Source: Liolophura sinensis (Eukaryota; Mollusca; Polyplacophora; Chitonida; Chitonidae). Taken from it: DNA of 64,000 nt. Below are positions 7,822 to 64,000 of the stretch, in pieces. Location: the NCBI RefSeq assembly GCF_032854445.1, contig NC_088296.1, positions 1,488,001 through 1,552,000 on the forward strand, given 5' to 3'. Each line of letters opens with the position of its first letter. Positions within the stretch are counted from its first letter, which is position 1. Position numbers and translations under genes: made by a program. The notes under the pieces are model-generated. The model was not told the DNA's origin. It was given only the letters and a program-made list of their open reading frames with translations, and searched no databases.

Positions 7822-7840
7822 TATGAGCTCGTTTTTGTTC
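7822..7840 (-). other. 5' UTR part of the first coding exon, with upstream 3' splice site
   Basis: On the minus strand 'gccgttctcatttcag' is followed by 'gaacaaaaacgagctcat' and then the ATG. A pyrimidine-rich acceptor only 19 nt before the start codon implies that the 5' UTR is split and that at least one non-coding exon lies upstream (higher coordinates). Confidence 0.7.
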
Positions 7841-7843
7841 CTG

Positions 7844-22125: not shown

Positions 22126-22225
22126 ATGGTGTTCGAGTCGATCGTGGTTGAGTTAATCAACCGTTATTTGGGGGATTTCGTGGAAAATCTAGACCGATCC
22201 CAGCTGAAACTCGGCATATGGGGAG
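22126..22225 (+). CDS. VPS13 coding exon 1
   Basis: 33 codons plus one base, donor G|GTGAGT at 22226. It encodes the VPS13 N-terminal helix and start of the lipid groove ('[20 protein letters not shown]'). Confidence 0.92.
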
Positions 22226-34200: not shown

Positions 34201-37200
34201 CTGACATGGCAAGGCAGCCTGTGAGGCTCTAGACAAGGGGGTCTTGTCGTGGAGAATACCGAGCTGTCTGGGATGTACATGAATGTGGAAGATGTTTGAA
34301 GGTCTATAGGTGCGTGATCGGACTGTTACTGCAGTTATAAAACTTTATCCGATTTGTTATTGCCTTATCTGTCACATTATATTGACACAACAACAACAAG
34401 AAGATAATTCTACCGATGTACAAGTATGCGTGTAAAGTTTTGAAAGGAAACCTGCAAAAACACAATTAACCTTAGTGCACCACAAAAAAAAAGTCCCAGT
34501 ATGTTTGAAATTGCATTTTTAATATCTAAAAACGGAGGTATGGATTTGAATTGTATGTGCGTGTATAGATGATAATTTTCAGAAGGTAAACTTGAGGGGT
34601 TAAAAGAACTAACAACCTTTGAATGAAATCCACCATGCAGCATCAAAATGTCCTAGCGACTGAAAGACTATGAAACATCATAACCATGATTTGCTTATCA
34701 CTGGGTTTAGTGGTGACCTTGAAAATGTAATACCCGAATTCCTCAATCTATTCCCATACAGTAACTTTCAGAGCAATTTGTGCACATTTTAAATTTGTTT
34801 TTGGAAAGAAAACTACACTTTTGGGATTGGCAAGTGTCCAGGCTTCACAAAATGTCTAATTTTATCAGTCAGCAGAGAATAGTGCCTTCAGAATATGCTT
34901 GAATCAACATCTTGCAAACATGTGAAGAGGTTTAAGAATTACTGTATTCTGGATTCTGTCTGGTCTCCTACACTGATATGGCCTCCTTCACTGATCTGGG
35001 CTCCTACACAGATTTGTCCTCCTACACCGATTTGTCCTCCTACACCGATTTGTCCTACACGGATCTGGTCTCCAACACTGATATGGTCTCCTACACTGTT
35101 TTGTCCTACACTGGTCTGGTCTCCTACACTGATATGACCTCCTGCACTGATTTGTCCTACACTGATGTGGTCTCCAACACTGATCTGGTCTCCTACACTA
35201 ATCTGGTCTCCTACACTGATTTGTCCTACACTGATATTGTCTCCTACACTGATATGATCACTGGTCGTACACTGATATGGTCTCCTACACTGATTTGTCC
35301 TACACCGATATTGTCTCCTACACGGATTTGTCCTGCGCTGATATGGTCTCCTACACTGATATGATCACTGGTCGTACACTGATATGGTCGCTGTACATGC
35401 ATATCTGTGGAAAAGTTTGTGAGTGATTAGGGCAGGATTGAGGGGCAGCATGTATAGGGAATTTTGTATTTTAAAGATATTATTTTTACATTTTATTTGA
35501 AAATAATAATGAAATAAAAATTCCATTGAAAAGTCCAACAAACACTTGAGCACAGAGGGTCTGTCCAGTTACCTACATGTAAACCCTTGGCCTGGCAATG
35601 TGACCCATAATATTGACTGTGACTGAAAAATCACACCAAACAAGTCCAACAAACACTTGAGCACAGAGGGTCTGTCCAGTTACCTACATGTAAACCCTTG
35701 GCCTGGCCATGTGACCCATACTATTGACTGTGACTGAAAAATCACACCAAACAAGTCCATCAAACACTTGAGCTCAGAGGGTCTGTCCAGTTACCTACAT
35801 GTAAACCCTTGGCCTGGCCATGTGACCCATACTATTGACTGTGACTGAAAAATCACACCAAACAAGTCCAACAAACACTTGAGCACAGAGGGTCTGTCCA
35901 GTTACCTACATGTAAACCCTTGGCTTGGCAATGTGACCCATACTATTGACTGTGAGTGAAAAATCACACCAAACAAGTCCATCAAACACTTGAGCACAGA
36001 GGGTCTGTCCAGTTACCTACATGTAAACCCTTGGCCTGGCCATGTGACCCATACTATTGACTGTGACTGAAAAATCACACCAAACAAGTCCAACAAACAC
36101 TTGAGAACAGAGGGTCTGTTCAGTTACCTACATGTAAACCCTTGGCCTGGCAATGTGACCCATACTATTGACTGTGACTGAAAAATCACACCAAACAAGT
36201 CCAACAAACACTTGAGCACAGAGGGTCTGTCCAGTTACCTACATGTAAACCCTTGGCTTGGCAATGTGACCCATACTATTGACTGTGACTGAAAAATCAC
36301 ACCAAACAAGTCCAACAAAGACTTTAGAAATGATATTAGTGGAAAGGTCTCCAGCAACCTGCGGATGGTCGTGGGTTTCCCCCGGGCTCTGCCCGGTTTC
36401 CTTCCACCATAATGCTGGCCGCCGTTGTATTAGTGAAATATTCTTGAGTACGGCGTAAAACACCAATCAAATAAATAAATAAATTAGAAATCATATTGGT
36501 TGCTGTCTCTCTTGGCACTCAGCACTGAGAAGCTAGAATAAGGAAACAGGACTGATTGGCCTGGTGTCAGAAGATCATGACTGGGTGAGGTGGCGTCTGG
36601 TGAATTAGCGGCAGCACTTTGGCAGCATGGACTCACCCTGTTACAAGAAGACACAGTATATGTACACACACCTAATGACTCCTCATCATGTGACTGAAAT
36701 CATATGACCGCTAAGCCCCAAGCATACATACAATGATACATACATATAAAACAACAATGAAAAGAAGCATGCACTATGTGGTTCATGACCCTGCCTGGTG
36801 TCATCATCTCAGTTTGCTGTGTCTGGCAGGCCTTTGTATGGTGTACATGTTATGACTGCAGGCTACTCATCCATAGAGCTCACACACCACATACAATGTA
36901 CCTGTCACTTAGCTGTGCCTGGCATGATGGAATTGACCCAACAGTGGTGTATAGTTATAATCATCATAAAACTCTGCCCTGACTCACATCTCTAATAACA
37001 GAGTGTTTTCTGGGTCACTGACGCTCACCATCTGTCAGATATCCAGAGCCTACATGTAATATCCCCTCCCTCCCGTTCCATTCCCCACCCCTCCGGCACA
37101 AACACAAGCTTGTTTGTCGAAGCCTACATCTAATAGTACCTCTGTCGGGTTCTGATACATCTAAAAATTTGATCCTGTGATAAGAAAACATTAAACGTAA

Positions 37201-40200
37201 TTTTATTATTTGCTGTGCGAAAAATGGCATTATCAAGTTGTTAACCGAATTGTCCCCAAGTTGGGTTTATTAATTAATTTTGCCAAGCCAGCCAACAAGC
37301 CACTAGTCAGAGAGGTGCCAGTCCAGTTCTTGCTGATTGGGCTACACCTTAAAGTTGAAATGTAAATTTTCAACCACAAAGTGCCTTGATGTATTCGACC
37401 CCTTGACCTTACTGCCCCAGCATGTGCATCAGTTAAACAGTTATGCGAATACAAACCACTTAGTGTTTCATGGCACTCTTAAGAATATTGTATATTTTCA
37501 ACAGTGGCCAGACTGGGGAAGGGAGGAAACTCTGCAGAGCACTGTGGAAAACAACTGCTTTATGTTGTCCATGTACCTGATATGAACCTCTGGAACTTAT
37601 TTATTTACAGACCACTTTGGTGGCCTAATAGTGAGAGCATCCACTTCGATGTCTGCAGACCTGGGATCAAACCCGGGTCAGGTCATACCTTAGACTGTAA
37701 AAATGGTGCTTGCCGCTGCCTTGCTTGATGCCCAGCACTGGGTAGAGCAAGGAAACATAACTGGTTGGTGCAGCGTCAGTGTGATATGTGAGTGGGCTGG
37801 TGTCATGCCTGGTGTCTTCAGTATGATATGTGACTGGGCCAGTGTCATGCCTGGTGTCTTCAGCATGATATGTGACTGGGCCAGTGTCATGCCTGGTGTC
37901 TTCAGCATGATATGTGACTGGGCCAGTGTCATGCCTGGTGTCTTCAGCATGATATGTGACTGGGCCAGTGTCATGCCTGGTGTCTTCAACACAATACCTG
38001 GGCAGCACTTAGGCAGTATGCACTTGCCATACCACAAGAAGACACAATATATATGTACACACACCTAATGACTCTTCATGGTCACATGACTGAAAAGTTG
38101 TTAAGTACGATGTTAAACCCAAGCATGCATGCATATTGACTTACAGCATGACTAGGAGAAGCTGGATTTGAACTCGCGACCAGAGAACAAGCAGAATCTA
38201 AGGATTTTTCAGAGTGGCCTGATGGTGGCTGTATGAACTATGTAGCAAGTAAATATCATTAAATGTCAGATTGAGGGATAAAACTGTTACAGGGATTTGG
38301 TGTGTTAATGGGAAACATTCATCAGAACAGAGATGATAAGGAAACATTGGACTGAGAAAATCTTATTCCACAATAATATGTACTTTTAATCTGTATTAAT
38401 GTACAAGGTACGTAAGACTGTTTTATATTGGTTCAAATTTTTTCTCATGGTTTAATATTAATGCTCCACTTGCATGGTAGCTTTGTTGTTTCCCTCCATC
38501 ATACTATGTGTATTTCTTTCGGGGCCTTCTGTGGTTTGATGCTACCATAGCATCACCCATGTGACCAGGAGCCTCTAACCAATTACCTTGCTGTGAGTTC
38601 AAGTCCAGCTCATGCTGTCCTACTTTTATGTCATATGTGGGAAGGTCTTCCATCAACCTTGTGATGATCATGGGTTTCCACTGGGCTCTACCTGGTTTCC
38701 TCCAACCAGATTTATGCTAGCTACTTTCATATATTTAATGGTTTTCTCCCACCAGATAATGCTTCCTACCATCATATGTTTAATGGTTTCCTCCCACCAG
38801 ATAATGCTTGCTACCATCATGTATTTAATGGTTTCCTCCCACCAGATAATGCTTCCATTTTTTTAACAAGTCAGCAGTGTAGTACACATTTGGCGGATGT
38901 GTTAAAATAAGTGAATTCCATTTTTATCCTTCAGTGTGGTGTACAGTAAAATACATGTACCATTCAAACAAATGAAATACTACGAAAAAATGTGAACAGT
39001 TAACAAATAGATACTATTTCTGCTTTATATATGTGGAGGGTAGTTTAGACAAATGTGAAAATGTGGGTAGTCTTCAAACAATTAGTCAACACCTGGCCAC
39101 TTGGCCATAAAACCATTTGCTCTCAGCAGATAATAATTTTCTCAATTAGCAGAACTTATTTTAAATCATTGGGTTTGCCACGTACCCATTAAGCGGGCTT
39201 TGGTAGGGTCCCAGCCTGGTGGGTTCTGCGACCTTAAAATTCCGGACAGCTGTCATGCAGGAAATATTCTGGAGTACGGCTCATAACACCGACTGTTCAC
39301 GTTAATAAATGAATGTACATGTAGCCCTGCATGTGATTGTGCACTCAATACTGCAGTGTTTCATGACAGGAATTTTAGTCCAACAGGACTTTTAAGGCCG
39401 CTACTTGTTCAAATCGAGTTGTGAAGGAGTTTAGCAGTGACATTTTGCCTTACTCGTCACACGTGTAAATCTGAATGTATGGCCGATTGTGTGTGTATAG
39501 TGTATATTATGTTATCCTGTATCAGACAAAATACTCCACTTTTCATTGGCCAACAACACACCATCACACCATATATTCTCGAATCCTGCAGACACGGTCA
39601 AATGTGTTTGCTGAGTAGGTTATCTCCCATTGTGGGGTTGTGAATACAATAGTCACGCCGCTGACACTGAGTGAAACAATTCACCTACATGTACACTGTA
39701 TACGTGTACATCGATCTTCTGCACTGAACTGATAGGTCTCTGCAGGATAAATTCGTTACCTGGTTACTTAGTAATAGGATACACAGGTATATGGTGTCAG
39801 TAATCCTCCTATTGGGTGAAGCATCACATTGAGCCAGGCGACACCATATATTTGAGTATCCTATCAATGAGTCATCATGCCTTGGGTCAGGCATCACATT
39901 GAGGGAGGTGACACCATATATTTGAGTATCCTATCGCTGAGTCATCATGCCTTGGGTCAGGCATCACATTGAGGGAGGTGACACCATATATTTGAGTATC
40001 CTATCAATGAGTCATCATGCCTTGGGTCAGGCATCACATTGAGGGAGGTGACACCATATATTTGAGTATCCTATCGCTGAGTCATCATGCCTTGGGTCAG
40101 GCATCACATTGAGGGAGGTGACACCATATATTTGAGTATCCTATCAATGAGTCATCATGCCTTGGGTCAGGCATCACATTGAGGGAGGTGACACCATATA

Positions 40201-43200
40201 TTTGAGTATCCTATCGCTGAGTCATCATGCCTTGGGTCAGGCATCACATTGAGGGAGGTGACACCATATATTTGAGTATCCTATCAATGAGTCATCATGC
40301 CTTGGGTCAGGCATCACATTGAGGGAGGTGACACCATATATTTGAGTATCCTATCGCTGAGTCATCATGCCTTGGGTCAGGCATCACATTGAGGGAGGTG
40401 ACACCATATATTTGAGTATCCTATCAATGAGTCATCATGCCTTGGGTCAGGCATCACATTGAGGGAGGTGACACCATATATTTGAGTATTCTATAGCTGA
40501 GTCACCATGCCTTGGGTCAGGCATCACATTGAGGGAGGTGACACCATATATTTGAGTATCCTATCAATGAGTCACCATGCCTTGGGTCAGGCATCACATT
40601 GAGGGAGGTGACACCATATATTTGAGTATCCTATCGCTGAGTCATCATGCCTTGGGTCAGGCATCACATTGAGGGAGGTGACACCATATATTTGAGTATC
40701 CTATCAATGAGTCATCATGCCTTGGGTCAGGCATCACATTGAGGGAGGTGACACCATATATTTGAGTATCCTATCAATGAGTCATCATGCCTTGGGTCAG
40801 GCATCACATTGAGGGAGGTGACACCATATATTTGAGTATCCTATCGCTGAGTCATCATGCCTTGGGTCAGGCATCACATTGAGGGAGGTGACACCATATA
40901 TTTGAGTATTCTATCAATGAGTCATCATGCCTTGGGTCAGGCGTCACATTGAGGGAGGTGACACCATATATTTGAGTATTCTATAGCTGAGTCACCATGC
41001 CTTGGGTCAGGCATCACATTGAGGGAGGTGACACCATATATTTGAGTATCCTATCAATGAGTCATCATGCCTTGGGTCAGGCATCACATTGAGGGAGTTG
41101 ACATCATATATTTGAGTATCCTATAGCTGAGTCACCATGCCTTGGGTCAGGCATCACATTGAGGGAGGTGACACCATATATTTGAGTATCCTATCAATGA
41201 GTCATCATGCCTTGGGTCAGGCATCACATTGAGGAAGGTGACACCATATATTTGAGTATCCTATCGCTGAGTCATCATGCCTTGGGTCAGGCATCACATT
41301 GAGGGAGGTGACACCATATATTTGAGTATCCTATAGCTGAGTCACCATGCCTTGGGTCAGGCATCACATTGAGGGAGGTGACACCATATATTTGAATATC
41401 CTATCGCTGAGTCATCATGCCTTGGGTCAGGCATCACATTGAGGGAGGCGACACCATATATTTGAGTATCCTATCAATGAGTCATCATGCCTTGGGTCAG
41501 GCGTCACATTGAGCCAGGCGACACCATATATTTGCGTATCCTATCACTGAGTCACCATGGACATGTAACTAATAACGATGCCAGTTAGTTAGTAGATTGG
41601 ATGTGTAACCATGGTGATATGTGCATTCAGCTTGTTTTTATTTGTTTCAGGTGATGTTGTTCTGAAAAACTTGGATTTAAAGGAAAGTGCTTTGGTAAGT
41701 ACAACTACTTATACTGCGCATACTGAGACTTACACTTACAGTACATGTATGGAGAGTGTGTGGAGGTGGGCACAGGAATTCTGGTCCGTCCCTGTACAAC
41801 ACTTACCATACATGTATTAAGTGGGTGTGGACGTGGGCACAGGAATTCTGGTCCATCCCTGCACAACACTTACCGTACATATATGGAGAGTGTGTGGACG
41901 TGGGCACAGGAATTCCGGTCCATCCCTGCACAACACTTACCGTACATGTACGGAGTGTGTGTGGACACAGGAATTCTTGTCCGTCCCTGCACAACACTTA
42001 CCGTACATGTATGGAGTGTGTGTGGACATGGGCACAGGAATTCTGGTCTGTCCCTGCACAACACTTACCGTATATGTATTGAGTGGGTGTGGACATGGGC
42101 ACAGGAATTCTGGTCTGTCCCTGCACAACACTTACCATACATGTATTAAGTGGGTGTGGACGTGGGCACAGGAATTCTGGTCTGTCCCTGCACAACACTA
42201 ACTGTACATGTATGGAGTGTGTGTGGACGTGGACACAGGATTTGTGGTCCGTCCCTGTACAACACTTACCGTACATGTATGGAGTGTGTGTGGACGTGGG
42301 CACAGGATTTCTGGTCTGTCCCTGTACAACACTTACCGTACATGTATGGTGTGCGTGTGGACGTGGGCACAGGATTTCTGGTCCATCCCTGCACAACACT
42401 TACCGTACATGTATGGTGTGTGTGTGGACGTGGGCACAGGATTTCTGGTCCGTCCCTGCACAACACTTACCGTACATGTATGGTGTGTGTGTGGACGTGG
42501 GCACAGGAATTCTGGTCCGTCCCTGCACAACACTTACCGTACATGTATGGTGTGTGTGTGGACGTGGGCCACAGGAATTCTGGGTCCGTCCCTGCACAAC
42601 ACTAACTGTACATGTATGGAGTGTGTGTGGACGTGGTTACAGGAATTCTGGTCCGTCCCTGTACAACACTTACAGTACATGTATGGTGTGTGTGTGGACG
42701 TGGGCACAGGATTTCTCGTCCGTCCCTGCACAACACTTACCGTACATGTATGGAGTGTGTGTGGACGTGGGCCACAGGAATTCTGGTCCGTCCCTGCACA
42801 ACACTTACCGTACATGTATGGTGTGTGTGTGGACATGGGCACAGGAATTCTGGTCCGTCCCTGCACAACACTTACCGTACATGTATGGAGTGTGTGTGGG
42901 ACGTGGGCACAGGATTTCTGGTCCATCCCTGCACAACACTTATCATACATGTATGGAGTGTGTGTGGACGTGGACACAGGAATTCTTGTTTGTCCCTGCA
43001 CAACACTAACTGTACATGTATTGAGTGGGTGTGGACGTGGGCACAGGAATTCTAGTCCCTCCCTGTACAACACTTACAGTACATGCATGGAGTGTGTGTG
43101 GACGTGGGCACAGGAATTCTTGTCCGTCCCTGCACAACACTAACTGTACATGTATGGAGTGTGTGTGGACGTGGGCACAGGAATTCTGGTCCGTCCCTGT

Positions 43201-46200
43201 ACAACACTTACCGTACATGTATGGTGTGTGTGTGGACGTGGGCACAGGAATTCTTGTCCGTCCTGCACAACACTAACTGTACATGTATGGAGTGTGTGTG
43301 GACACAGGAATTCTGGTCCGTCCGTGCACAACACTTACCGTACATGTATGGAGTGTGTGTGGATGTAGGCACAGGAATTCTGGTCTGTCCGTGCACAACA
43401 CTTACCGTACATGTATGGAGTGTGTGTGGACACAGGAATTCTTGTCCGTCCCTGTACAACACTTACCGTACATGTGTGGAGTGTGTGTGGACGTGGGCAC
43501 AGGAATTCTGGTCCATCCCTGCACAACACTAACTGTACATGTATGGAGTGTGTGTGGACGTGGACACAGGAATTCTGGTCCGTCCCTGCACAACACTTAC
43601 TGTACATGTATGGAGTGTGTGTGGATGTGGGCACAGGAATTCTTGTCCGTCCCTGCACAAACACTTACCGTACATGTATGGAGTGTGTGTGGACACAGGA
43701 ATTCTGGTCCGTCCCTGTACAACACTTACCGTACATGTGTGGAGTGTGTGTGGACGTGGGCACAGGAATTCTGGTCCGTCCCTGCACAACACTAACTGTA
43801 CATGTATGGAGTGTGTGTGGATGTGGACACAGGAATTCTTGTCCGTCCCTGCACAACACTTACCGTACATGTATTGAGTGTGTGTGGATGTGGGCACAGG
43901 AATTCTGGTCCGTCCCTGTACAACACTTACCGTACATGTATGGTGTGTGTGTGGACGTGGGCACAGGAATTCTTGTTCGTCCCTGCACAACACTAACTGT
44001 ACATGTATGGAGTGTGTGTGGACGTGGTTACAGGAATTCTGGTCCGTCCCTGTACAACACTTACAGTACATTGTATGGAGTGTGTGTGGACACAGGAATT
44101 CTGGTCCGTCCCTGTACAACACTTACCGTACATGTGTGGAGTGTGTGTGGACGTGGGCACAGGAATTCTGGTCCGTCCCTGCACAACACTAACTGTACAT
44201 GTATGGAGTGTGTGTGGATGTGGACACAGGAATTCTGGTCCATCCCTGTACAACACTTGCCGTACATGTATGGAGTGTGTGTGGACGTGGGCACAGGAAT
44301 CCTGGTCCGTCCCTGTACAACACTTACCGTACATGTATGGAGTGTGTGTGGACGTGGGCACAGGAATCCTGGTCCGTCCCTGTACAACAGTTACTGTGCA
44401 TGTACATGTATGGAGTGTGTGTGGACGTGGGCACAGGAATTCTGGTCCGTCCCTGTACAACGGTTACCGTACATGTATTGAGTGTGTGTGGACGTGGGCA
44501 CAGGAATCCTGGTCCGTCCCTGTACAACAGTTACTGTACATGTATGGAGTGTGTGTGGACGTGGGCACAGGAATTCTGGTCCGTCCCTGCACAACACTTA
44601 CCGTACATGTATGGAGTGTGTGTGGACGTGGTTACAGGAATTCTGGTCCGTCCCTGCACAACACTAACTGTACATGTATGGAGTGTGTGTGGACGTGGAC
44701 ACAGGATTTCTGGTCTGTCCCTGCACAACACTTACCGTATATGTATGGAGTGTGTGTGGACGTGGGCACAGGAATTCTGGTCCGTCCTGCACAACACTTA
44801 CCGTATATGTATGGAGTGTGTGTGGACGTGGGCACAGGAATTCTGGTCCGTCCTTGAACAACACTTACCGTACATGTATGGAGTGTGTGTGGACGTGGGC
44901 ACAGGAATTCTGGTCCGTCCATGTACAACAGTTACCGTACATGTATGGAGTGTGTGTGGAGGTGGGCACAGGAATTCTGGTCCGTCCCTGCACAACACTA
45001 ACTGTACATGTATGGAGTGTGTGTGGACATGGACACAGGATTTCTGGTCCGTCCCTGCACAACACTTACCGTACATGATGGAGTGTGTGTGGACACAGGA
45101 ATTCTGGTCCGTCCCTGCACAACACTAACTGTACATGTATGGAGTGTGTGTGGACATGAGCACAGGAATTCTGGTCTGTCCCTGCACAACACTTACCGTA
45201 TATGTATGGAGTATGTGTGGACACAGGAACTCTGGTCCATCCCTGAACGACACTTACCGTACATGTATGGAGTGTGTGTGGATTGGACACAGGAATTCTG
45301 GTCCGTCCCTGCACAACACTTATCGTACATGTATGGAGTGTGTGTGGACACAGGAATTCTGGTCCATCCCTTGCACAACACTTATCATACATGTATGGAG
45401 TGTGTGTGGACGTGGGCACAGGAATTCTGATCCGTCCCTGCACAACACTTACCGTACATGTATGGAGTGTGTATGGACGTGGGGCACAGGAATTCTGGTC
45501 CATCCTTGAACAACACTTACCGTACATGTATGGAGTGTTTGTGGACGTGGGCACAGGAATTCTGGTCCGTCCCTGCACAACACTTAGCGTACATGTATGG
45601 AGTGTGTATGGACGTGGGCACAGGAATTCTGGTCCGTCCCTGCACAACACTTACCGTACATGTATGGAGTGTGTGTGGACACAGGAACTCTGGTCCATCC
45701 TTGAACAACACTTACCGTACATGTATGGAGTGTGTGTGGATTGGACACAGGAATTCTGGTCCGTCCCTGCACAACACTTACGGTACATGTATGGAGTGTG
45801 TGTGGACGTGGGCACAGGAATTCTGGTCCGTCCCTGCACAACACTAACTGTACATGTATGGAGTGTGTGTGGACGTGGGCACAGGAATTTCGGTCCATCC
45901 CTGTACAACACTAACTGTACATGTATGGAGTGTGTATGGACGTGGGCACAGGAATTCTGGTCCATCCTTGAACAACACTTACCGTACATGTATGGAGTGT
46001 GTGTGGATGTGGGCACAGGAATTCTGGTCCGTCCCTGCACAACACTTACCGTACATGTATGGTGTGTGTGTGGACATGGGCACAGGAATTCTTGTTCGTC
46101 CCTGCACAACACTAACTGTACATGTATGGAGTGTGTGTGGACGTGGTTACAGGAATTCTGGTCCGTCCCTGTACAACGCTTACCGTACATGCATGGAGTG

Positions 46201-49697: not shown

Positions 49698-50555
49698 GTG
49701 AGTTTGTGCTGGCAAGTTTAGTTGTATTGTACTTGCTTTGATATTTAACACGATTTTTGATGAATGTTAAAGAATACATGAAAAAGTAAAGTACAATAAA
49801 ACAAAGAATGTGGCCCTAAGGAAAATTAAGGAAGGTATTCCAATGCATTCAGAAAATTTTTTCTTTGTTGGGGCATATTTTATATTTCTTAATAACCCCT
49901 CTATTTAATGAGTAATTTTCTTCAGTTCTCAAGAATATTGAATATATTGTTGTCCTCAGGGACCATATTAAAAATGCAGTGATATTGATGGGTTTTCAAT
50001 GAAGTGAGTCCCTGGGACCCAGAGGCGGCTAAATGAGTGGGTCCCATTGGAAATGAGTGGGTCCTGAATAAAATGTTTTTCTTGGAGTTAAACTTCTGGT
50101 CGATTTAATAATTTTTAATAAAATAAATTAAATAATGCTTTTGGATGACTCAGACTATGATCAGGAGATCTCTACTGCGCCTGATAAATGCCTATAAGGG
50201 CAATATCTAGGAGAAAACAGTTAAGCTTCTGTTCCCGAACTGGAAACATTGTTTTAGTCACTGAATTTATGTTTAGATTGCTGCATGTCCTTTGCAATTC
50301 ATTCTTCATATTGTACCTGGAACTGGTACTGATTTTCTAGAATAATACTGTAAGGATTTATAACTAGATATAAAATATAGAAACTGTTCCGTTATCTACC
50401 ATTATACAGTGTGTTCATTTCGAAATATTTCTAAGAAGCAGTCTTGTATTTATAAGATAAAAGTTTATAAACAATACAAAACACGTAAATGGCATAGGTC
50501 TAGTAAATCAGCAGTATGTGAGTTCTCACATTAAACAGTGTTCAACAACAACATG
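49698..50555 (+). other. Start of VPS13 intron 4 up to the assembly gap
   Basis: AT-rich non-coding sequence. I find no acceptor followed by the expected next VPS13 residues. It contains a short doubled 'tgagtgggtcc' at about 50034-50067. Confidence 0.5.
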
Positions 50556-50755
50556 NNNNNNNNNNNNNNNNNNNNNNNNNNNNNNNNNNNNNNNNNNNNN
50601 NNNNNNNNNNNNNNNNNNNNNNNNNNNNNNNNNNNNNNNNNNNNNNNNNNNNNNNNNNNNNNNNNNNNNNNNNNNNNNNNNNNNNNNNNNNNNNNNNNNN
50701 NNNNNNNNNNNNNNNNNNNNNNNNNNNNNNNNNNNNNNNNNNNNNNNNNNNNNNN
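50556..50755. other. Assembly gap, 200 N
   Basis: Exactly 200 N, a round placeholder size typical of scaffolding software rather than a measured gap. The sequence resumes inside a 111-bp satellite already seen at 35533, and then repeats the region from 35.5 kb onward. Confidence 0.97.
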
Positions 50756-52079
50756 GTCCAACAAACACTTGAGCACAGAGGGTCTGTCCAGTTACCTGCA
50801 TGTAAACCCTTGGCCTGGCCATGTGACCCATACTATGGACTGTGACTGAAAAATCACACCAAACAAGTCCAACAAACACTTGAGCACAGAGGGTCTGTCC
50901 AGTTACCTGCATGTAAACCCATGGCCTGGCATTGTGACCCATACTATTGACTGTGACTGAAAAATCACACCAAACAAGTCCATCAAACACTTGAGGACAG
51001 AGGGTCTGTCCAGTTACCTACATGTAAACCCATGGCCTGGCAATGTGACCCATAATATTGACTGTGACTGAAAAATCACACCAAACAAGTCCAACAAACA
51101 CTTGAGCACAGAGGGTCTGTCCAGTTACCTACATGTAAACCCATGGCCTGGCAATGTGACCCATACTATTGACTGTGACTGAAAAATCACACCAAACAAG
51201 TCCAACAAACACTTGAGCACAGAGGGTCTGTCCAGTTACCTACATGTAAACCCATGGCCTGGCAATGTGACCCATAATATTGACTGTGACTGAAAAATCA
51301 CACCAAACAAGTCCAACAAACACTTGAGCACAGAGGGTCTGTCCAGTTACCTACATGTAAACCCATGGCCTGGCAATGTGACCCATACTATTGACTGTGA
51401 CTGAAAAATCACACCAAACAAGTCCAACAAAGACTTGAGCACAGAGGGTCTGTCCAGTTACCTACATGTAAACCCTTGGCCTGGCCATGTGACCCATACT
51501 ATTGACTGTGACTGAAAAATCACACCAAACAAGTCCAACAAACACTTGAGCACAGAGGGTCTGTCCAGTTACCTACATGTAAACCCTTGGCCTGGCTATG
51601 TGACCCATAATATTGACTGTGACTGAAAAATCACACCAAACAAGTCCAACAAACACTTGAGCACAGAGGGTCTGTCCAGTTACCTACATGTAAACCCTTG
51701 GCCTGGCCATGTGACCCATACTATTGACTGTGACTGAAAAATCACACCAGACAAGTCCAACAAACACTTGAGCACAGAGGGTCTGTCCAGTTGTAAACCC
51801 TTGGCCTGGCAATGTGACCCATACTATTGACTGTGACTGAAAAATCACACCAAACAAGTCCAACAAACACTTGAGCACAGAGGGTCTGTCCAGTTACCTG
51901 CATGTAAACCCTTGGCCTGGCCATGTGACCCATACTATGGACTGTGACTGAAAAATCACACCAAACAAGTCCATCAAACACTTGAGCACAGAGGGTCTGT
52001 CCAGTTACCTACATGTAAACCCATGGCCTGGCAATGTGACCTATACTATTGACTGTGACTGAAAAATCACACCAAACAA
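50756..52079. repeat. 111-bp satellite, 12 copies (block B)
   Basis: Same unit as at 35533-36309. Twelve copies, one with an 8-bp net deletion near 51790. A change 'cccttgg' to 'cccatgg' is common here. The array begins at the gap edge, so the true copy number is unknown. Confidence 0.96.
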
Positions 52080-52117
52080 GTCCAACAAAGACTATAGAAA
52101 TGATATTAGTGGAAAGG

Positions 52118-52254
52118 TCTCCAGCAACCTGCGGATGGTCGTGGGTTTCCCCAGTGCTCTGCCCGGTTTCCTCCCACCATAATGCTGGCCGCCATCGTAT
52201 AAGTGAAATATTCTTGAGTACGGCGTAAAACACCAATCAAATAAATAAATAAAT
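52118..52254 (+). mobile_element. SINE family 1, 5'-truncated (block B)
   Basis: Counterpart of 36339-36484 with a few substitutions ('ccagtgctctgcccggtttc', 'gccgccatcgtataagtg'). Confidence 0.85.
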
Positions 52255-52267
52255 TAGAAATGATATT

Positions 52268-52515
52268 GGTTGCTGTCTCTCTTGGCACTCAGCACTGAGA
52301 AGCTAGAATAAGGAAACAGGACTGGTTGGCCTGGTGTCAGAAGATCATGACTGGGTGAGGTGGTGTCTGGTGAATTAGCGGCAGCACTTTGGCGGCATGG
52401 ACTCACCCTGCTACAAGAAGACACAGTATATGTACACACACCTGATGACTCCTCATCATGTGACTGAAATCATATGACTGCTAAGCCCCAAGCATACATA
52501 CAATGATACATACAT
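52268..52515 (+). mobile_element. SINE family 2, headless copy (block B)
   Basis: Counterpart of 36498-36745, with changes such as 'ggtggtgtctggtg'. Confidence 0.8.
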
Positions 52516-53390
52516 ATAAAACAACAATGAAAAGAAGCATGCACTATGTGGTTCATGACCCTGCCTGGTGTCATCATCTCAGTTTGCTGTGTCTGGCAGG
52601 CCTTTGTTTGTATCGTGTACATGTTATGACTGCGGGCTATTCATCCATAGAGCTCACACACCACATACAATGTACCTGTCACTTAGCTGTGTCTGGCATG
52701 ATGGAATTGACCCAACAGTTGTGTATAGTTATAATCATCATAAAGCTCTGCCCTGACTCACATCCCTAATAACAGAGTGTTTTCTGGGTCACTGACGCTC
52801 ACCATCTGTCAGATATCCAGAGCCTACATGTAATATCCCCTCCCTCCCGTTCCATTCCCCACCCCTCGGCACAAACACAAGCTTGTTTGTCGAAGCCTAC
52901 ATCTAATAGTACCTCTGTCGAGTCCTGATACATCTAAAAATTTGATCCGTTGATCTTAATGAAGAAAACATTAAACGTAATTTTATTATTTGCTGTGCGA
53001 AAAATGGCATTATCAAGTTGTTAACCGAATTATCCCCAAGTTGGGTTTATTAATTAATTTTGCCAAGCCAGCCAACAAGCCACTAGTCAGAGAGGTGCCA
53101 GTCCAGTTCTTGCTGATTGGGCTACACCTTAAAGTTGAAATGTAAATTTTCAACCACAAAGTGCCTTGATGTATTCGACCCCTTGACCTTACTGCCCCAG
53201 CATGTGCATCAGTTAAACAATTATGCGAATACAAACCACTTAGTGTTTCATGGCACACTTAAGAATATTGTATATTTTCAACAGTGGCCAGACTGGGGAA
53301 GGGAGGAAACTCTGCAGAGCACTGTGGAAAACAACTGCTTTATGTTGTCCATGTACCTGATATGAACCTCTGGAACTTATTTATTTACAG

Positions 53391-53917
53391 ACCACTTTGG
53401 TGGCCTAATAGTGAGAGCATCCACTTCGATGTCTGCAGACCTGGGATCAAACCCGGGTCAGGTCATACCTTAGACTGTAAAAATGGTGCTTGCCGCTGCC
53501 TTGCTTGATGCCCAGCACTGGGTAGAGCAAGGAAACATAACTGGTTGGTGCAGCGTCAGTGTGATATGTGAGTGGGCTGGTGTCATGCCTGGTGTCTTCA
53601 GTATGATATGTGACTGGGCCAGTGTCATGCCTGGTGTCTTCAGCATGATATGTGACTGGGCCAGTGTCATGCCTGGTGTCTTCAGCATGATATGTGACTG
53701 GGCCAGTGTCATGCCTGGTGTCTTCAGCATGATATGTGACTGGGCCAGTGTCATGCCTGGTGTCTTCAACACAATACCTGGGCAGCACTTAGGCAGTATG
53801 CACTTGCCATACCACAAGAAGACACAATATATATGTACACACACCTAATGACTCTTCATGGTCACATGACTGAAAAGTTGTTAAGTACGATGTTAAACCC
53901 AAGCACGCATGCATATT
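53391..53917 (+). mobile_element. SINE family 2, full length with 42-bp expansion (block B)
   Basis: Counterpart of 37611-38137. The internal 42-bp array has the same copy number in both blocks, unlike the 70-bp and 111-bp arrays. Confidence 0.82.
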
Positions 53918-54300
53918 GACTTACAGCATGACTAGGAGAAGCTGGATTTGAACTCGCGACCAGAGAACAAGCAGAATCTAAGGATTTTTCAGAGTGGCCT
54001 GATGGTGGCTGTATGAACTATGTAGCAAGTAAATATCATTAAATGTCAGATTGAGGGATAAAACTGTTACAGGGATTTGGTGTGTTAATGGGAAACATTC
54101 ATCAGAACAGAGATGATAAGGAAACATTGGACTGAGAAAATCTTATTCCACAATAATATGTACTTTTAATCTGTATTAATGTACAAGGTACGTAAGACTG
54201 TTTTATATTGGTTCAAATTTTTTCTCATGGTTTAATATTAATGCTCCACTTGCATGGTAGCTTTGTTGTTTCCCTCCATCATACTATGTGTATTTCTTTC

Positions 54301-54525
54301 GGGGCCTTCTGTGGTTTGATGCTACCATAGCATCACCCATGTGACCAGGAGCCTCTAACCAATTACCTTGCTGTGAGTTCAAGTCCAGCTCATGCTGTCC
54401 TACTTTTATGTCATATGTGGGAAGGTCTTCCATCAACCTTGTGATGATCATGGGTTTCCACTGGGCTCTACCTGGTTTCCTCCAACCAGATTTATGCTAG
54501 CTACTTTCATATATTTAATGGTTTT
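54301..54525 (+). mobile_element. SINE family 1, full head (block B)
   Basis: Counterpart of 38521-38745 at offset 15780; no difference noticed. It is followed by the same 45-bp three-copy repeat (54486-54638). Confidence 0.8.
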
Positions 54526-54638
54526 CTCCCACCAGATAATGCTTCCTACCATCATATGTTTAATGGTTTCCTCCCACCAGATAATGCTTGCTACCATCAT
54601 GTATTTAATGGTTTCCTCCCACCAGATAATGCTTCCAT

Positions 54639-55593
54639 TTTTTTAACAAGTCAGCAGTGTAGTACACATTTGGCGGATGTGTTAAAATAAGTGAATTCCA
54701 TTTTTATCCTTCAGTGTGGTGTACAGTAAAATACATGTACCATTCAAACAAATGAAATACTACGAAAAAATGTGAACAGTTAACAAATAGATACTATTTC
54801 TGCTTTATATATGTGGAGGGTAGTTTAGACAAATGTGAAAATGTGGGTAGTCTTCAAACAATTAGTCAACACCTGGCCACTTGGCCATAAAACCATTTGC
54901 TCTCAGCAGATAATAATTTTCTCAATTAGCAGAACTTATTTTAAATCATTGGGTTTGCCACGTACCCATTAAGCGGGCTTTGGTAGGGTCCCAGCCTGGT
55001 GGGTTCTGCGACCTTAAAATTCCGGACAGCTGTCATGCAGGAAATATTCTGGAGTACGGCTCATAACACCGACTGTTCACGTTAATAAATGAATGTACAT
55101 GTAGCCCTGCATGTGATTGTGCACTCAGTACTGCAGTGTTTCATGACAGGAATTTTAGTCCAACAGGACTTTTAAGGCCGCTACTTGTTCAAATCGAGTT
55201 GTGAAGGAGTTTAGCAGTGACATTTTGCCTTACTCGTCACACGTGTAAATCTGAATGTATGGCCGATTGTGTGTGTATAGTGTATATTATGTTATCCTGT
55301 ATCAGACAAAATACTCCACTTTTCATTGGCCAACAACACACCATCACACCATATATTCTCGAATCCTGCAGACATGGTCAAATGTGTCTGCTGAGTAGGT
55401 TATCTCCCTTTGTGGGGTTGTGAATACAATAGTCACGCCGCTGACACTGAGTGAAACGATTCACCTACATGTACACTGTATACGTGTACATCGATCTTCT
55501 GCACTGAACTGATAGGTCTCTGCAGGATAAATTCGTTACCTGGTTACTTAGTGATAGGATACACAGGTATATGGTGTCAGTAATCCTCCTATT
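54639..55593. other. Non-coding spacer (block B)
   Basis: Counterpart of 38859-39814 with few substitutions (for example near 55128, 55374, 55388 and 55410). No exon. Confidence 0.5.
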
Positions 55594-55660
55594 GGGTGAG
55601 GCATCACATTGAGCGAGGCGACACCATATATTTGCGTATTCTATCACTGAGTCACCATGC
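55594..55660. repeat. 70-bp satellite, single copy (block B)
   Basis: One unit with 'gaggcatcacattgagcgag' + 'gcgacaccatatatttgcgt', equivalent to the outermost copies of the 25-copy array in block A. Confidence 0.9.
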
Positions 55661-55750
55661 ACATCTAACTAATAACGATGCCACTTAGTTAGTAGATTGG
55701 ATGTGTAACCATGGTGATATGTGCATTCAGCTTGTTTTTATTTGTTTCAG

Positions 55751-55794
55751 GTGATGTTGTTCTGAAAAACTTGGATTTAAAGGAAAGTGCTTTG
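55751..55794 (+). CDS. VPS13 coding exon 2, copy B
   Basis: Identical to 41651-41694, including acceptor 'tttgtttcag' and donor TTG|GTAAGT. It lies after exon 4 in the assembled order, so it cannot take part in a normal VPS13 transcript from exon 1 here. The reading frame continues past the donor without a stop into the array, to beyond 57400. Confidence 0.85.
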
Positions 55795-55836
55795 GTAAGT
55801 ACAACTACTTATACTGCGCATACTGAGACTTACACT

Positions 55837-58800
55837 TACCGTACATATATGGAGAGTGTGTGGAAGTGGGCACAGGAATTCTGGTCCGTCCCTGTACAAC
55901 ACTTACCGTACATGTGTGGAGTGTGTGTGGACGTGGGCACAGGAATTCTGGTCCATCCCTGCACAACACTTACCGTACATGTATGGAGTGTTTGTGGACG
56001 TGGACACAGGAATTCTGGTCCATCCCTGCACAACACTTACCATACATGTATGGAGTGTGTGTGGATTTGGACACAGGAATTCTGGTCCGTCCCTGCACAA
56101 CACTTACCGTACATGTATGGAGTGTGTGTGGACGTGGACACAGGAATTCTGGTCCATCTCTGTACAACACTTACCGTACATGTATGGAGTGTGTGTGGAC
56201 ACAGGAATTCTGGTGCATCCCTGCACAACACTTACAGTACATGTATGGAGTGTGTGTGGATTTGGACACAGGAATTCTGGTCCGTCCCTGCACAACACTT
56301 ACCGTACATATATGGAGTGTGTGTGGACGTGGGCACAGGAATTCTGGTCCATCCCTGCACAACACTTACCGTACATGTGTGGAGTGTGTGTGGACACAGG
56401 AATTCTGGTGCATCCCTGCACAACACTTACAGTACATGTATGGAGTGTGTGTGGACACAGGAATTCTGGTCCATCCCTGCACAACACTTACCGTACATGT
56501 ATGGAGTGTGTGTGGGCACAGGAATTCTCGTCCATCCCTGCACAACACTTACCATACATGTATGGAGTGTGTGTGGATTTGGACACAGGAATTCTGGTCC
56601 GTCCCTGCACAACACTTACCGTACATATATGGAGTGTGTGTGGACGTGGGCACAGGAATTCTGGTCCATCCCTGCACAACACTTACCGTACATGAATGGA
56701 GTGTGTGTGGACGTGGACACAGGAATTCTGGTCCATCCCTGCACAACACTTACCGTACATGTATGGAGTGTGTGTGGATTTGGACACAGGAATTCTGGTC
56801 CGTCCCTGCACAACACTTACCGTACATATATGGAGTGTGTGTGGACGTGGGCACAGGAATTCTGGTCCATCCCTGCACAACACTTACCGTACATATATGG
56901 AGAGTGTGTGGACGTGGGCACAGGAATTCTGGTCCATCCCTGCACAACACTTACAGTACATGTATGGAGTGTGTGTGGATTTGGACACAGGAATTCTGGT
57001 CCGTCCCTGCACAACACTTACTGTACATATATGGAGTGTGTGTGGACGTGGGCACAGGAATTCTGGTCCATCCCTGCACAACACTTACCGTACATGTATG
57101 GAGTGTGTGTGGACGTGGACACAGGAATTCTGGTCCATCCCTGCACAACACTTACCGTACATGTATGGAGTGTGTGTGGACGTGGGCACAGGAATTCTGG
57201 TCCATCCCTGCACAACACTTACCGTACATGTATGGAGTGTGTGTGGACACAGGAATTCTGGTCCATCCCTGCACAACACTTACCGTACATGTATGGAGTG
57301 TGTGTGGAAGTGGACACAGGAATTCTGGTCCGTCCGTGCAGAACACTTACCATACATGTATGGAGTGTGTGTGGACGTGGGCACAGGAATTCTGGTCCGT
57401 CCGTGCACAACACTTATCGTACATGCATGGAGTGTGTGTGGACTTGGGCATAGGAACTCTGGTCCATCCCTGAACGACACTTACCGTACATGTATGGAGT
57501 GTGTGTGTGGACGTGGGCACAGGAATTCTGGTCCGTCCCTGCACAACACTTACCGTACATGCATGGAGTGTGTGTGGACTTGGGCATAGGAACTCTGGTC
57601 CATCCCTGAACGACACTTACCGTACATGTATGGAGTGTGTGTGGACGTAGGCACAGGAATCCTGGTCCATCCCTGCACAACACTTACCGTACATGTATGG
57701 AGTATGTGTGGACGTGGGCACAGGAATCCTGGTCCATCCCTGCACAACACTTACCGTACATGTATGGAGTGTGTGTGGACTTGGGCATAGGAACTCTGGT
57801 CCATCCCTGAACGACACTTACCGTACATGTATGGAGTGTGTGTGGACGTGGGCACAGGAATCCTGGTCCGTCCCTGCACAACACTTACCGTACATGCATG
57901 GAGTGTGTGTGGACTTGGGCATAGGAACTCTGGTCCATCCCTGAACGACACCGTACATGTATGGAGTGTGTGTGGACGTGGGCACAGGAATTCTGGTCCG
58001 TCCCTGCACAACACTTACCGTACATGCATGGAGTGTGTGTGGACGTGGGCACAGGAGTTCTGGTCCATCCTTGAACAACACTTACCGTACATGTATGGTG
58101 TGTGTGTGGATGTGGATACAGGAATTCTGGTCCGTCCCTGCACAACACTTACCGTACATGTATGGAGTGTGTGTGGACACAGGAATTCTGGTCCATCCAT
58201 GCACAACACTTACCGTACATGTATGGAGTGTGTGTGGACGTGGGCACAGGAATTCTGGTCCGTCCGTGCACAACACTTACCGTACATGCATGGAGTGTGT
58301 GTGGACTTGGGCATAGGAACTCTGGTCCATCCCTGAACGACACTTACCGTACATGTATGGAGTGTGTATGGACACAGGAATTCTGGTCTGTCCCTACACA
58401 ACACTTACCGTACATGTATGGAGTGTGTGTGGACACAGGAATTCTGGTCCATCCCTGCACAACACTTACCGTACATGCATGGAGTGTGTGTGGACTTGGG
58501 CATAGGAACTCTGGTCCATCCTTGAACAACACTTACCGTACATGTATGGAGTGTGTGTGGACGTGGGCACAGGAATTCTGGTCCATCCTTGAAGAACACT
58601 TACCGTACACGTATGGGTGTGTGTGGACGTAGACACAGGAATTCTGGTCCATCCCTGCACAACACTTACCGTTCATGTATGGAGTGTTTGTGGATGTGGG
58701 CACAGGAATTCTGGTCCGTCCCTGCACAACACTTACCGTACATGTATGGAGTGTGTGTGGACGTGTGCACAGGAATTCTGGTCCATCCCTGCACAACACT

Positions 58801-61800
58801 TACCATACACGTATGGTGTGTGTGTGTGGACGTGGGCACAGGAATTCTGGTCCATCCTTGAACAACAGTAACTGTACATGTATGGAGTGTGTGTGGACGT
58901 GGGCACAGGAATTCTGGTCCATCCCTGCACAACACTTACCGTACATGTGTGAAGTGTGTGTGGACACAGGAATTCTGGTCCATCCCTGTACAACAGTAAC
59001 TGTACATGTATGGAGTGTGTGTGGACGTGGGCACAGGAATTCTGGTCCATCCTTGAACAACACTTACCGTACATGTATGGAGTGTGTATGGACGTGGGCA
59101 CAGGAATTCTGGTCCATCCCTGCACAACACTAACTGTACATGCATGGAGTGTGTGTGGACGTGGGCACAGGAATTTTGGTCCGTCCCTGTACAACACTTA
59201 CCGTACATGTATGGAGTGTGTGTGGACACAGGAATTCTGGTCCATCCCTGCACAACACTTACCGTACATGTATGGAGTGTGTGTGGACACAGGAATTCTG
59301 GTCCGTCCCTGCACAACACTTACCGTTCATCCCTGTACAACAGTAACTGTACATGTATGGAGTGTGTGTGGACTTGGGCACAGGAATTCTGGTCCATCCC
59401 TGCACAACACTTACCGTACATGTGTGAAGTTTGTGTGGACACAGGAATTCTGGTCCATCCCTGTACAACAGTAACTGTACATGTATGGAGTGTGTGTGGG
59501 ACGTGGGCACAGGAATTCTGGTCCGTCCCTGCACAACACTTACCATACATGTATGGAGTGTGTGTGGACACAGGAACTCTGGTCCATCCCTGAACGACAC
59601 TTACCGTACATGTATGGAGTGTGTGTGGACGTGGACACCGGAATTCTGGTCTGTCCCTGCACAACACTTACCGTACATGTATAGAGTGTGTGTGGACACA
59701 GGAATTCTGGTCCATCCCTGCACAACACTTACCGTACATGTATGGAGTGTGTGTGGACACAGGAATTCTGGTCCATCCCTGCACAACACTTACCGTACAT
59801 GTATGGAGTGTGTGTGGACGTGGGCACAGGAATCCTGGTCCGTCCCTGCACAACACTTACCGTACATGTATGGAGTGTGTGTGGATTTGGACACAGGAAT
59901 TCTGGTCCGTCCTTGCACAACACTTACCGTACATGTATGGAGTGTGTGTGGACACAGGAATTCTGGTCCATCCCTGCACAACACTTACCGTACATGTATG
60001 GAGTGTGTGTGGACACAGGAATTCTGGTCCATCCCTGTACAACAGTAACTGTACATGTATGGAGTGTGTGTGGACGTGGGCACAGGAATTCTGGTCCGTC
60101 CCTGCACAACACTTACCATACATGTATGGAGTGTGTGTGGACACAGGAACTCTGGTCCATCCCTGAACGACACTTACCGTACATGTATGGAGTGTGTGTG
60201 GACGTGGACACCGGAATTCTGGTCTGTCCCTGCACAACACTTACCGTACATGTATAGAGTGTGTGTGGACACAGGAATTCTGGTCCATCCCTGCACAACA
60301 CTTACCGTACATGTATGGAGTGTGTGTGGACACAGGAATTCTGGTCCATCCCTGCACAACACTTACCGTACATGTATGGAGTGTGTGTGGACACAGGAAT
60401 TCTGGTCCATCCCTGTACAACAGTAACTGTACATGTATGGAGTGTGTGTGGACGTGGGCACAGGAATTCTGGTCCGTCCCTGCACAACACTTACCATACA
60501 TGTATGGAGTGTGTGTGGACACAGGAACTCTGGTCCATCCCTGAACGACACTTACCGTACATGTATGGAGTGTGTGTGGACGTGGACACCGGAATTCTGG
60601 TCTGTCCCTGCACAACACTTACCGTACATGTATAGAGTGTGTGTGGACACAGGAATTCTGGTCCATCCCTGCACAACACTTACCGTACATGTATGGAGTG
60701 TGTGTGGACACAGGAATTCTGGTCCATCCCTGCACAACACTTACCGTACATGTATGGAGAGTGTGTGGACGTGGGCACAGGAATTCTGGTCCATCCTTGA
60801 ACAACACTTACCGTACATGTATGGTGTGTGTGTGGACGTGGATACAGGAATTCTGGTCCGTCCTTGAACAACACTTACCGTACATGTGTGGAGTGTTTGT
60901 GTGGACGTGGATAAAGGAATTCTGGTCCATCCTTGAACAACACTTACCGTACATGTATGGAGTGTGTGTGGACGTGGGCACAGGAATTCTGGTCCATCCT
61001 TGAACAACACTTACCGTACATGTATGGTCTGTCTGTGGACGTGGATACAGGAATTCTGGTCTGTCCCTGCACAACACTTAGCGTACATGTATGGAGTGTG
61101 TGTGGACACAGGAATTCTGGTCCGTCTCTGCACAACACTTACCGTACATGTATGGAGTGTGTGTGGACGTGGGCACAGGAATTCTGATCCGTCCCTGCAC
61201 AACACTTACCGTACATGTATGGAGTGTGTGTGGACGTGGGCACAGGAATTCTGGTCCATCCTTGAACAACACTTACCGTACATGTGTGGAGTGTGTGTGG
61301 ACGTGGACACAGGAATTCTGGTCCATCCCTGCACAACACTTACCATACATGTATGGAGTGTGTGTGGATTTGGACACAGGAATTCTGGTCCGTCCCTGCA
61401 CAACACTTACCGTACATGTATGGAGTGTGTGTGGACGTGGACACAGGAATTCTGGTCCATCTCTGTACAACACTTACCGTACATGTATGGAGTGTGTGTG
61501 GACACAGGAATTCTGGTGCATCCCTGCACAACACTTACAGTACATGTATGGAGTGTGTGTGGATTTGGACACAGGAATTCTGGTCCGTCCCTGCACAACA
61601 CTTACCGTACATATATGGAGTGTGTGTGGACGTGGGCACAGGAATTCTGGTCCATCCCTGCACAACACTTACCGTACATGTGTGGAGTGTGTGTGGACAC
61701 AGGAATTCTGGTGCATCCCTGCACAACACTTACAGTACATGTATGGAGTGTGTGTGGACACAGGAATTCTGGTCCATCCCTGCACAACACTTACCGTACA

Positions 61801-64000
61801 TGTATGGAGTGTGTGTGGGCACAGGAATTCTCGTCCATCCCTGCACAACACTTACCATACATGTATGGAGTGTGTGTGGATTTGGACACAGGAATTCTGG
61901 TCCGTCCCTGCACAACACTTACCGTACATATATGGAGTGTGTGTGGACGTGGGCACAGGAATTCTGGTCCATCCCTGCACAACACTTACCGTACATGAAT
62001 GGAGTGTGTGTGGACGTGGACACAGGAATTCTGGTCCATCCCTGCACAACACTTACCGTACATGTATGGAGTGTGTGTGGATTTGGACACAGGAATTCTG
62101 GTCCGTCCCTGCACAACACTTACCGTACATATATGGAGTGTGTGTGGACGTGGGCACAGGAATTCTGGTCCATCCCTGCACAACACTTACCGTACATATA
62201 TGGAGAGTGTGTGGACGTGGGCACAGGAATTCTGGTCCATCCCTGCACAACACTTACAGTACATGTATGGAGTGTGTGTGGATTTGGACACAGGAATTCT
62301 GGTCCGTCCCTGCACAACACTTACCGTACATATATGGAGTGTGTGTGGACGTGGGCACAGGAATTCTGGTCCATCCCTGCACAACACTTACCGTACATGT
62401 ATGGAGTGTGTGTGGACGTGGACACAGGAATTCTGGTCCATCCCTGCACAACACTTACCGTACATGTATGGAGTGTGTGTGGACGTGGGCACAGGAATTC
62501 TGGTCCATCCCTGCACAACACTTACCGTACATGTATGGAGTGTGTGTGGACACAGGAATTCTGGTCCATCCCTGCACAACACTTACCGTACATGTATGGA
62601 GTGTGTGTGGAAGTGGACACAGGAATTCTGGTCCGTCCGTGCAGAACACTTACCATACATGTATGGAGTGTGTGTGGACGTGGGCACAGGAATTCTGGTC
62701 CGTCCGTGCACAACACTTATCGTACATGCATGGAGTGTGTGTGGACTTGGGCATAGGAACTCTGGTCCATCCCTGAACGACACTTACCGTACATGTATGG
62801 AGTGTGTGTGTGGACGTGGGCACAGGAATTCTGGTCCGTCCCTGCACAACACTTACCGTACATGCATGGAGTGTGTGTGGACTTGGGCATAGGAACTCTG
62901 GTCCATCCCTGAACGACACTTACCGTACATGTATGGAGTGTGTGTGGACGTAGGCACAGGAATCCTGGTCCATCCCTGCACAACACTTACCGTACATGTA
63001 TGGAGTATGTGTGGACGTGGGCACAGGAATCCTGGTCCATCCCTGCACAACACTTACCGTACATGTATGGAGTGTGTGTGGACTTGGGCATAGGAACTCT
63101 GGTCCATCCCTGAACGACACTTACCGTACATGTATGGAGTGTGTGTGGACGTGGGCACAGGAATCCTGGTCCGTCCCTGCACAACACTTACCGTACATGC
63201 ATGGAGTGTGTGTGGACTTGGGCATAGGAACTCTGGTCCATCCCTGAACGACACTTACCGTACATGTATGGAGTGTGTGTGGACGTGGGCACAGGAATTC
63301 TGGTCCGTCCCTGCACAACACTTACCGTACATGCATGGAGTGTGTGTGGACGTGGGCACAGGAGTTCTGGTCCATCCTTGAACAACACTTACCGTACATG
63401 TATGGTGTGTGTGTGGATGTGGATACAGGAATTCTGGTCCGTCCCTGCACAACACTTACCGTACATGTATGGAGTGTGTGTGGACACAGGAATTCTGGTC
63501 CATCCATGCACAACACTTACCGTACATGTATGGAGTGTGTGTGGACGTGGGCACAGGAATTCTGGTCCGTCCGTGCACAACACTTACCGTACATGCATGG
63601 AGTGTGTGTGGACTTGGGCATAGGAACTCTGGTCCATCCCTGAACGACACTTACCGTACATGTATGGAGTGTGTATGGACACAGGAATTCTGGTCTGTCC
63701 CTACACAACACTTACCGTACATGTATGGAGTGTGTGTGGACACAGGAATTCTGGTCCATCCCTGCACAACACTTACCGTACATGCATGGAGTGTGTGTGG
63801 ACTTGGGCATAGGAACTCTGGTCCATCCTTGAACAACACTTACCGTACATGTATGGAGTGTGTGTGGACGTGGGCACAGGAATTCTGGTCCATCCTTGAA
63901 GAACACTTACCGTACACGTATGGGTGTGTGTGGACGTAGACACAGGAATTCTGGTCCATCCCTGCACAACACTTACCGTTCATGTATGGAGTGTTTGTGG
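55837..64000. repeat. 67/61-bp minisatellite (block B), continues past the window
   Basis: Same unit as 41737-48155, more than 120 copies and still running at 64000. A diagnostic 'tggatttggacacagg' variant recurs. 56037-58690 is repeated almost exactly at 61340-63997 (offset 5303, later 5307 after a 4-bp deletion near 57951). A 378-bp block of six units is repeated at 59924-60301 and 60302-60679. Confidence 0.97.

Follow-up and report, generated by a model that had tools for sequence, protein, structure and literature searches.

Analysis of a 64,000-bp stretch of the chiton Liolophura sinensis genome (the window, scaffold C2:1,488,001-1,552,000) revealed the beginning of the lipid-transfer gene VPS13, in which exons 2-4 are written twice, once on each side of a 200-N scaffold gap. 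As judged from the sequence, this doubling is very probably a heterotype false duplication, that is, two contig ends from different haplotypes that overlap and were left unmerged. We examined 224 kb of scaffold C2, composed of the window and its flanks (20 kb on the upstream side, 140 kb on the downstream side). All coordinates follow the numbering of the window, which ends at 64,000, and the features of the locus are listed in Table 1.

Layout of the duplicated stretch

The duplicated stretch comprises the tail of the contig to the left of the gap (copy A, which starts at 35,531 or slightly before) and the head of the contig to the right (copy B). When the sequence after the gap was aligned with that before it, 35,531-39,880 matched 51,309-55,660 with 98.1% identity, and the match went on through exon 2 into a 67-bp tandem array. 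The final base before the gap, 50,555 in copy A, was paired exactly with 70,141 in copy B. Past this position, the right contig continues ungapped into a 157-bp array, exon 5 and later exons. The exon order on the scaffold is 1-2-3-4-gap-2'-3'-4'-5-..., with exon 1 found on the left contig only and exon 5 onward on the right contig only.

Apart from array lengths, the left contig tail is collinear from end to end with the right contig head, and the second contig runs on, which is the arrangement of a contig-end overlap: the left contig terminates in intron 4, and the right contig starts ~15 kb earlier in homologous sequence. Both members of the duplicated pair are on the same scaffold with a gap between them, which is among the marks of false duplication listed in PMC9516828. 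The collinearity of tail and head, together with the continuation of the right contig into exon 5, indicates that one stretch was written twice, and a match this long and this similar excludes chance. The flank to the left of copy A (33,400-34,930) had just short matches on the right-hand side (127-202 bp, 74-77% identity), as expected if copy B starts after that flank.

The first-pass annotation of this DNA had noticed exon 2 and its surroundings on both sides of the gap and a second copy that starts at the gap edge within a satellite, and we observed both, the latter being the 111-bp satellite at 50,756-52,093, cut by the gap. However, the duplicated part is not limited to 35.5-41.8 kb as proposed there, but involves all of 35,531-50,555 versus 50,756-70,141. 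The order of exons 1, 2, 3, 4, gap and again exon 2 was also read correctly; what had been called a wrong exon order is the opening of a second pass through exons 2-4.

The same annotation suggested that an uncollapsed haplotype contig had been placed in the scaffold. A haplotype origin is indeed the best supported, but the geometry is different: exon 5 and all that follows are on the right piece itself, and its head overlaps the left tail. A whole haplotig placed after exon 4 and before exon 5 would account for haplotype-like divergence and differing array lengths; however, one ungapped sequence bears exons 2'-4' and exon 5 onward. An N-run scan detected no runs besides 50,556-50,755 in the 224 kb examined, and no second gap was present in 50,756-204,000, a region that includes 134 kb past the first 19.4 kb of the right contig. 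The inserted haplotig, which we regard as very unlikely, was rejected on the absence of this second gap downstream, unless a chimeric contig is assumed.

We also searched the genome (609,464,459 bp in 632 sequences) with several probes, scoring the best 40 candidates for each. Among these candidates, each of the two overlap probes (36,000-38,000 and 49,592-50,555) had exactly two full-length matches, both on scaffold C2 at the VPS13 locus, and a probe of 720 bp with exon 5 inside it had one.

Table 1. Features of the VPS13 locus and of the two copies of the duplicated stretch (window coordinates)
Feature	Position	Strand	Description	Basis
Scaffold gap	50,556-50,755	.	200 N	N-run scan
Copy A	35,531-50,555	+	Left contig tail up to the gap; 15,025 bp or more of doubled sequence, tandem arrays making up 65%	Self-alignment
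Copy B	50,756-64,000 within window	+	Right contig head, doubled stretch; continues past window end to 70,141	Self-alignment
VPS13 exon 1	22,126-22,225	+	Coding portion of 100 nt, phase 1 at its 3' end	tblastn, donor site, phase, Pfam VPS13_N of joined exons
VPS13 exon 2, copy A	41,651-41,694	+	44 nt	Alignment
VPS13 exon 2, copy B	55,751-55,794	+	44 nt, identical to that of copy A	Alignment
VPS13 exon 3, copy A	48,346-48,389	+	44 nt, extra G at its start (GGG vs GG in B), frame broken	
VPS13 exon 3, copy B	67,956-67,998		43 nt, intact, beyond window	
VPS13 exon 4, copy A	49,601-49,697	+	97 nt, one extra G (GGG vs GG in B), frame broken	
VPS13 exon 4, copy B	69,197-69,292		96 nt, intact, beyond window	
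VPS13 exon 5	~73,458-73,616		Beyond window	tblastn
111-bp satellite, copy A	35,531-36,324	+	7.2 units	
111-bp satellite, copy B	50,756-52,093	+	At least 12.1 units, cut by gap	
70-bp array, copy A	39,812-41,559	+	25 units; copy B has ~1 unit near 55,591-55,660	
67-bp array, copy A	41,732-48,150	+	Intron 2; 97 units, 6.4 kb	
67-bp array, copy B	55,832-64,000 within window	+	Intron 2; 11.9 kb, runs to ~67,759	

Divergence between the copies and probable origin of the overlap

In single-copy parts, copies A and B differed by 86 substitutions in 5,679 aligned bases (1.51%), 60 of which were transitions, and by 14 insertions or deletions (indels). By this alignment, the divergence is close to the heterozygosity of 1.24% published for the Liolophura japonica genome (PMC11068029). 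The published assembly of this species contains 609,495,693 bp in 632 scaffolds and was built from 14x high-fidelity (HiFi) reads with a mean length of 8,347 bp by hifiasm 0.16.1, purge_dups and YaHS (PMC11068029). It has 1,110 gaps and 0.0364% N (PMC11068029), and we calculated that this N content corresponds to 1,110 x 200 bp, indicating that the gap length is a placeholder. A haplotype overlap is best supported because the divergence approximates heterozygosity, a placeholder gap separates the copies and the assembly is of low coverage.

The authors of purge_dups described that in highly heterozygous species overlaps remain among primary contigs, mostly between homologous chromosomes (PMC7203741). 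In heterotype false duplications and heterozygous contig-end overlaps (PMC9516828, PMC7203741), too, a single locus is present as two diverged copies that share a scaffold and are separated by a gap. The contig-end overlap is the type that purge_dups targets (PMC7203741), whereas the chiton case survived purging, probably as it consists mostly of tandem arrays.

In the proposed scenario, the left contig in its tail and the right contig in its head would cover the same 15-19 kb on two parental haplotypes, set side by side across the 200-N gap. Hifiasm would have built these contigs from different haplotypes at ~7x each (half of the published 14x), and the Omni-C scaffolder would then have ordered them correctly with a gap of fixed size. 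Tandem arrays account for 9,702 of the 15,025 bp of copy A and the remainder is 5,323 bp, so purge_dups may have missed the overlap since just ~5.3 kb is non-array sequence (65% tandem) and the differing arrays would break the alignment chain. The chain score that purge_dups requires by default is near 10 kb, which would explain a missed overlap. The animal itself is predicted to carry a single exon 1-2-3-4-5 set per chromosome.

VPS13 exons and reading frame

Exons were first located by local tblastn with VPS13 queries, and the identity of the gene was afterwards confirmed by Pfam. Over 184 kb searched from position 1, a single copy of exon 1 was found, and VPS13-like matches were detected by tblastn at 11 more places after exon 5, reaching ~148 kb. 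In copy B, exons 2, 3 and 4 together have 44+43+96 = 183 nt, corresponding to 61 codons with phase 1 on both sides. When exons 1 and 2 were joined with exons 3 and 4 of copy B, a clean N-terminus was obtained which matched the Pfam VPS13_N domain (PF12624) with an E-value of 6.6e-49 and 167.1 bits, compared to a gathering cut-off of 80. Among known proteins, this product is closest to VPS13A/C and represents a normal N-terminus; it was identical at 79 of 94 positions to the orthologue of the sea slug Elysia crispata and at 74 of 94 to that of another mollusc, Bradybaena similaris. Its alignments to VPS13 orthologues were gap-free over at least 90 residues in 34 of 50 sequences, and the other 16 had shorter matches or gaps of up to 28 positions.

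The first-pass annotation described the exons of the two copies as identical, which is true for exon 2 (all 44 nt) but not for exons 3 and 4, each of which has one extra G in copy A. As written, exon 3 of copy A leads to stop codons at once. Both frameshifts are located no more than 2.3 kb from the contig end, beside four other single-base run-length differences. The extra G in these exons probably reflects an error of the consensus close to the tip of the contig, where coverage would be thin, and a null allele is also possible; in the copy A exons, a null allele or a decaying duplicate would look the same as such an error.

Single-base run-length differences, of which copy A has six in its final 2.4 kb with both exon frameshifts among them, would also fit a homotype false duplication, in which one haplotype was assembled twice through read errors. 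However, 86 substitutions in 5,679 bases, with 60 transitions, and very different array interiors exceed what HiFi read error alone would produce. This explanation, to which we give hardly any credence, was rejected on the divergence between the copies.

No Liolophura VPS13 protein of 1,833-5,833 amino acids was found with a probe from exon 5 (L009:9458-9616) or from the middle of the gene (L014:26-346), though the database has Liolophura proteins, and in the annotation VPS13 may be divided over several gene models or absent. In the literature searched, no paper mentioned both Liolophura and VPS13.

Evidence against a haplotype overlap and a possible tandem duplication

Several observations weigh against a haplotype overlap. 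First, the divergence between the copies is uneven across single-copy parts: 0.98% in 36,325-39,811 (34 of 3,485 positions, in a part that includes two small arrays), 2.8% in 48,151-49,221 (30 of 1,069) and 2.0% in 49,592-50,555 (19 of 953); around exon 2, 3 of 172 positions were substituted. Second, the assembly went through purge_dups, which should have removed an overlap of this kind. Third, two frame-breaking insertions in the short exons of copy A are unexpected in a functional allele, so that an error or a null allele must be added to the explanation. With regard to error, single-base run-length changes accounted for 6 of 12 indels, versus 68 substitutions, in the last 2.4 kb of copy A, and for 1 of 4 indels, versus 34 substitutions, in the inner part, which is no clear excess at the tip and leaves the idea of a tip error weak in itself. 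In addition, a partial genome duplication was reported in L. japonica, but the linkage groups described there are doubled on separate chromosomes (PMC12005716), and this is not what the VPS13 locus shows.

Finally, exactly the exon order 1-2-3-4-gap-2'-3'-4'-5 would be produced by a real and recent tandem duplication of ~15-20 kb, with VPS13 exons 2-4 repeated and the junction inside the gap. We consider such an event improbable. If intact, the block of 183 nt, phase-matched as in copy B, would keep the frame and could therefore be tolerated, and the frame-broken exons of copy A would fit the decay of a spare copy. However, no junction sequence is seen, its place being occupied by the gap, and the boundary of the duplication would thus coincide with a placeholder; the divergence between the copies is also close to the published heterozygosity (1.51% versus 1.24%). 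Moreover, exon 3 of copy A would stop the protein as written, and the transcript would have to skip the copy A exons, which would preserve the gene. We further checked 50 VPS13 orthologues and found no second exon 2-4 block scoring above 38 within the first 400 residues, unlike the chiton scaffold as written.

Unequal crossing-over between the flanking 111-bp and 157-bp arrays was tried as a source of the duplication, and no driving homology was found; the best match between these arrays was 15 bp with an E-value of 0.25 among the matches listed. A more elaborate form of the duplication, to which we assign a slightly smaller probability still, would be a young tandem copy of the phase-matched 61-codon block with which the lipid-transfer groove begins, with the upstream copy frame-broken and spliced out, and with the 67-bp minisatellites rebuilt almost completely while their flanks changed by 1-3%.

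Tandem arrays and dispersed repeats

The differences in tandem-array lengths pointed out in the first-pass annotation were evident for the 111-bp, 70-bp and 67-bp arrays (Table 1). The 67-bp arrays of intron 2 also differ strongly in internal order although their single-copy flanks are 97-99% identical. The array of copy B contains an internal near-exact duplication with an offset of 5.3 kb, including exact stretches of 1,029, 929 and 816 bp. In comparison, the longest internal exact repeat in the copy A array is 165 bp, and exact matches shared by the two arrays do not exceed 133 bp. At the 5' edge, the arrays were 92-94% identical in register, similar to shifted controls (90-93%), and at the 3' edge identity was higher, namely 98%, 95% and 92.5% over 100, 400 and 1,200 bp, respectively. 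From these comparisons, some register is kept at the 3' edge, and array register says little as an allele test. The copy B array (11.9 kb) exceeds the mean read length (8,347 bp), and its internal structure may be imperfect.

If copies A and B are alleles, the 67-bp array would be a very fast-changing minisatellite. Like hypervariable minisatellites, it varies in both length and internal order between copies, but the allelic status of the two arrays here is derived from the proposed overlap.

Both contig ends are located in repeats: copy B starts within the 111-bp satellite, and copy A ends in a dispersed repeat. Judging by the sequence of copy B, the 157-bp array (9.1 units) begins ~33 bp after the endpoint of copy A. 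The final stretch of the left contig (49,977-50,555) lies in this dispersed repeat, whose copies are spread over several scaffolds and mostly share 70-84% identity with it. Another dispersed repeat of ~146 bp is present at 36,338-36,484, with copies that are mostly 92-97% identical; 44 of the 54 matches listed for the probe lay outside the locus. An abundant dispersed repeat of ~175 bp occurs just 3' of exon 5 (downstream piece L009:9826-10000), with 92-95% identical copies in many genomic places.

Implications and neighboring features

Gene models, duplication counts and variant calls that rely on the chiton reference at VPS13 would be misled by the doubled exons, and once the two contig ends were joined, exons 1-5 would likely follow in clean order. 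This locus also suggests how overlaps that consist mostly of tandem arrays may escape purging, and the 1,110 gaps of the published assembly (PMC11068029) are places to check. Beyond these implications for assembly error, the VPS13 site is ordinary.

Rfam and tRNA scans of the window found nothing. Many tandem arrays, with units of 16 to 406 bp, are present in 172-35,389. This part of the window also contains an open reading frame with RING and B-box domains (7,096-7,860, minus strand), which, across 88% of its length, matches a Liolophura sinensis protein named MID2-like with 100% identity. For 10 of the 22 database matches of this frame, the longest contig has 28,395,274 bp, equal to the length of scaffold C2, which suggests that it belongs to a local TRIM-like gene family.

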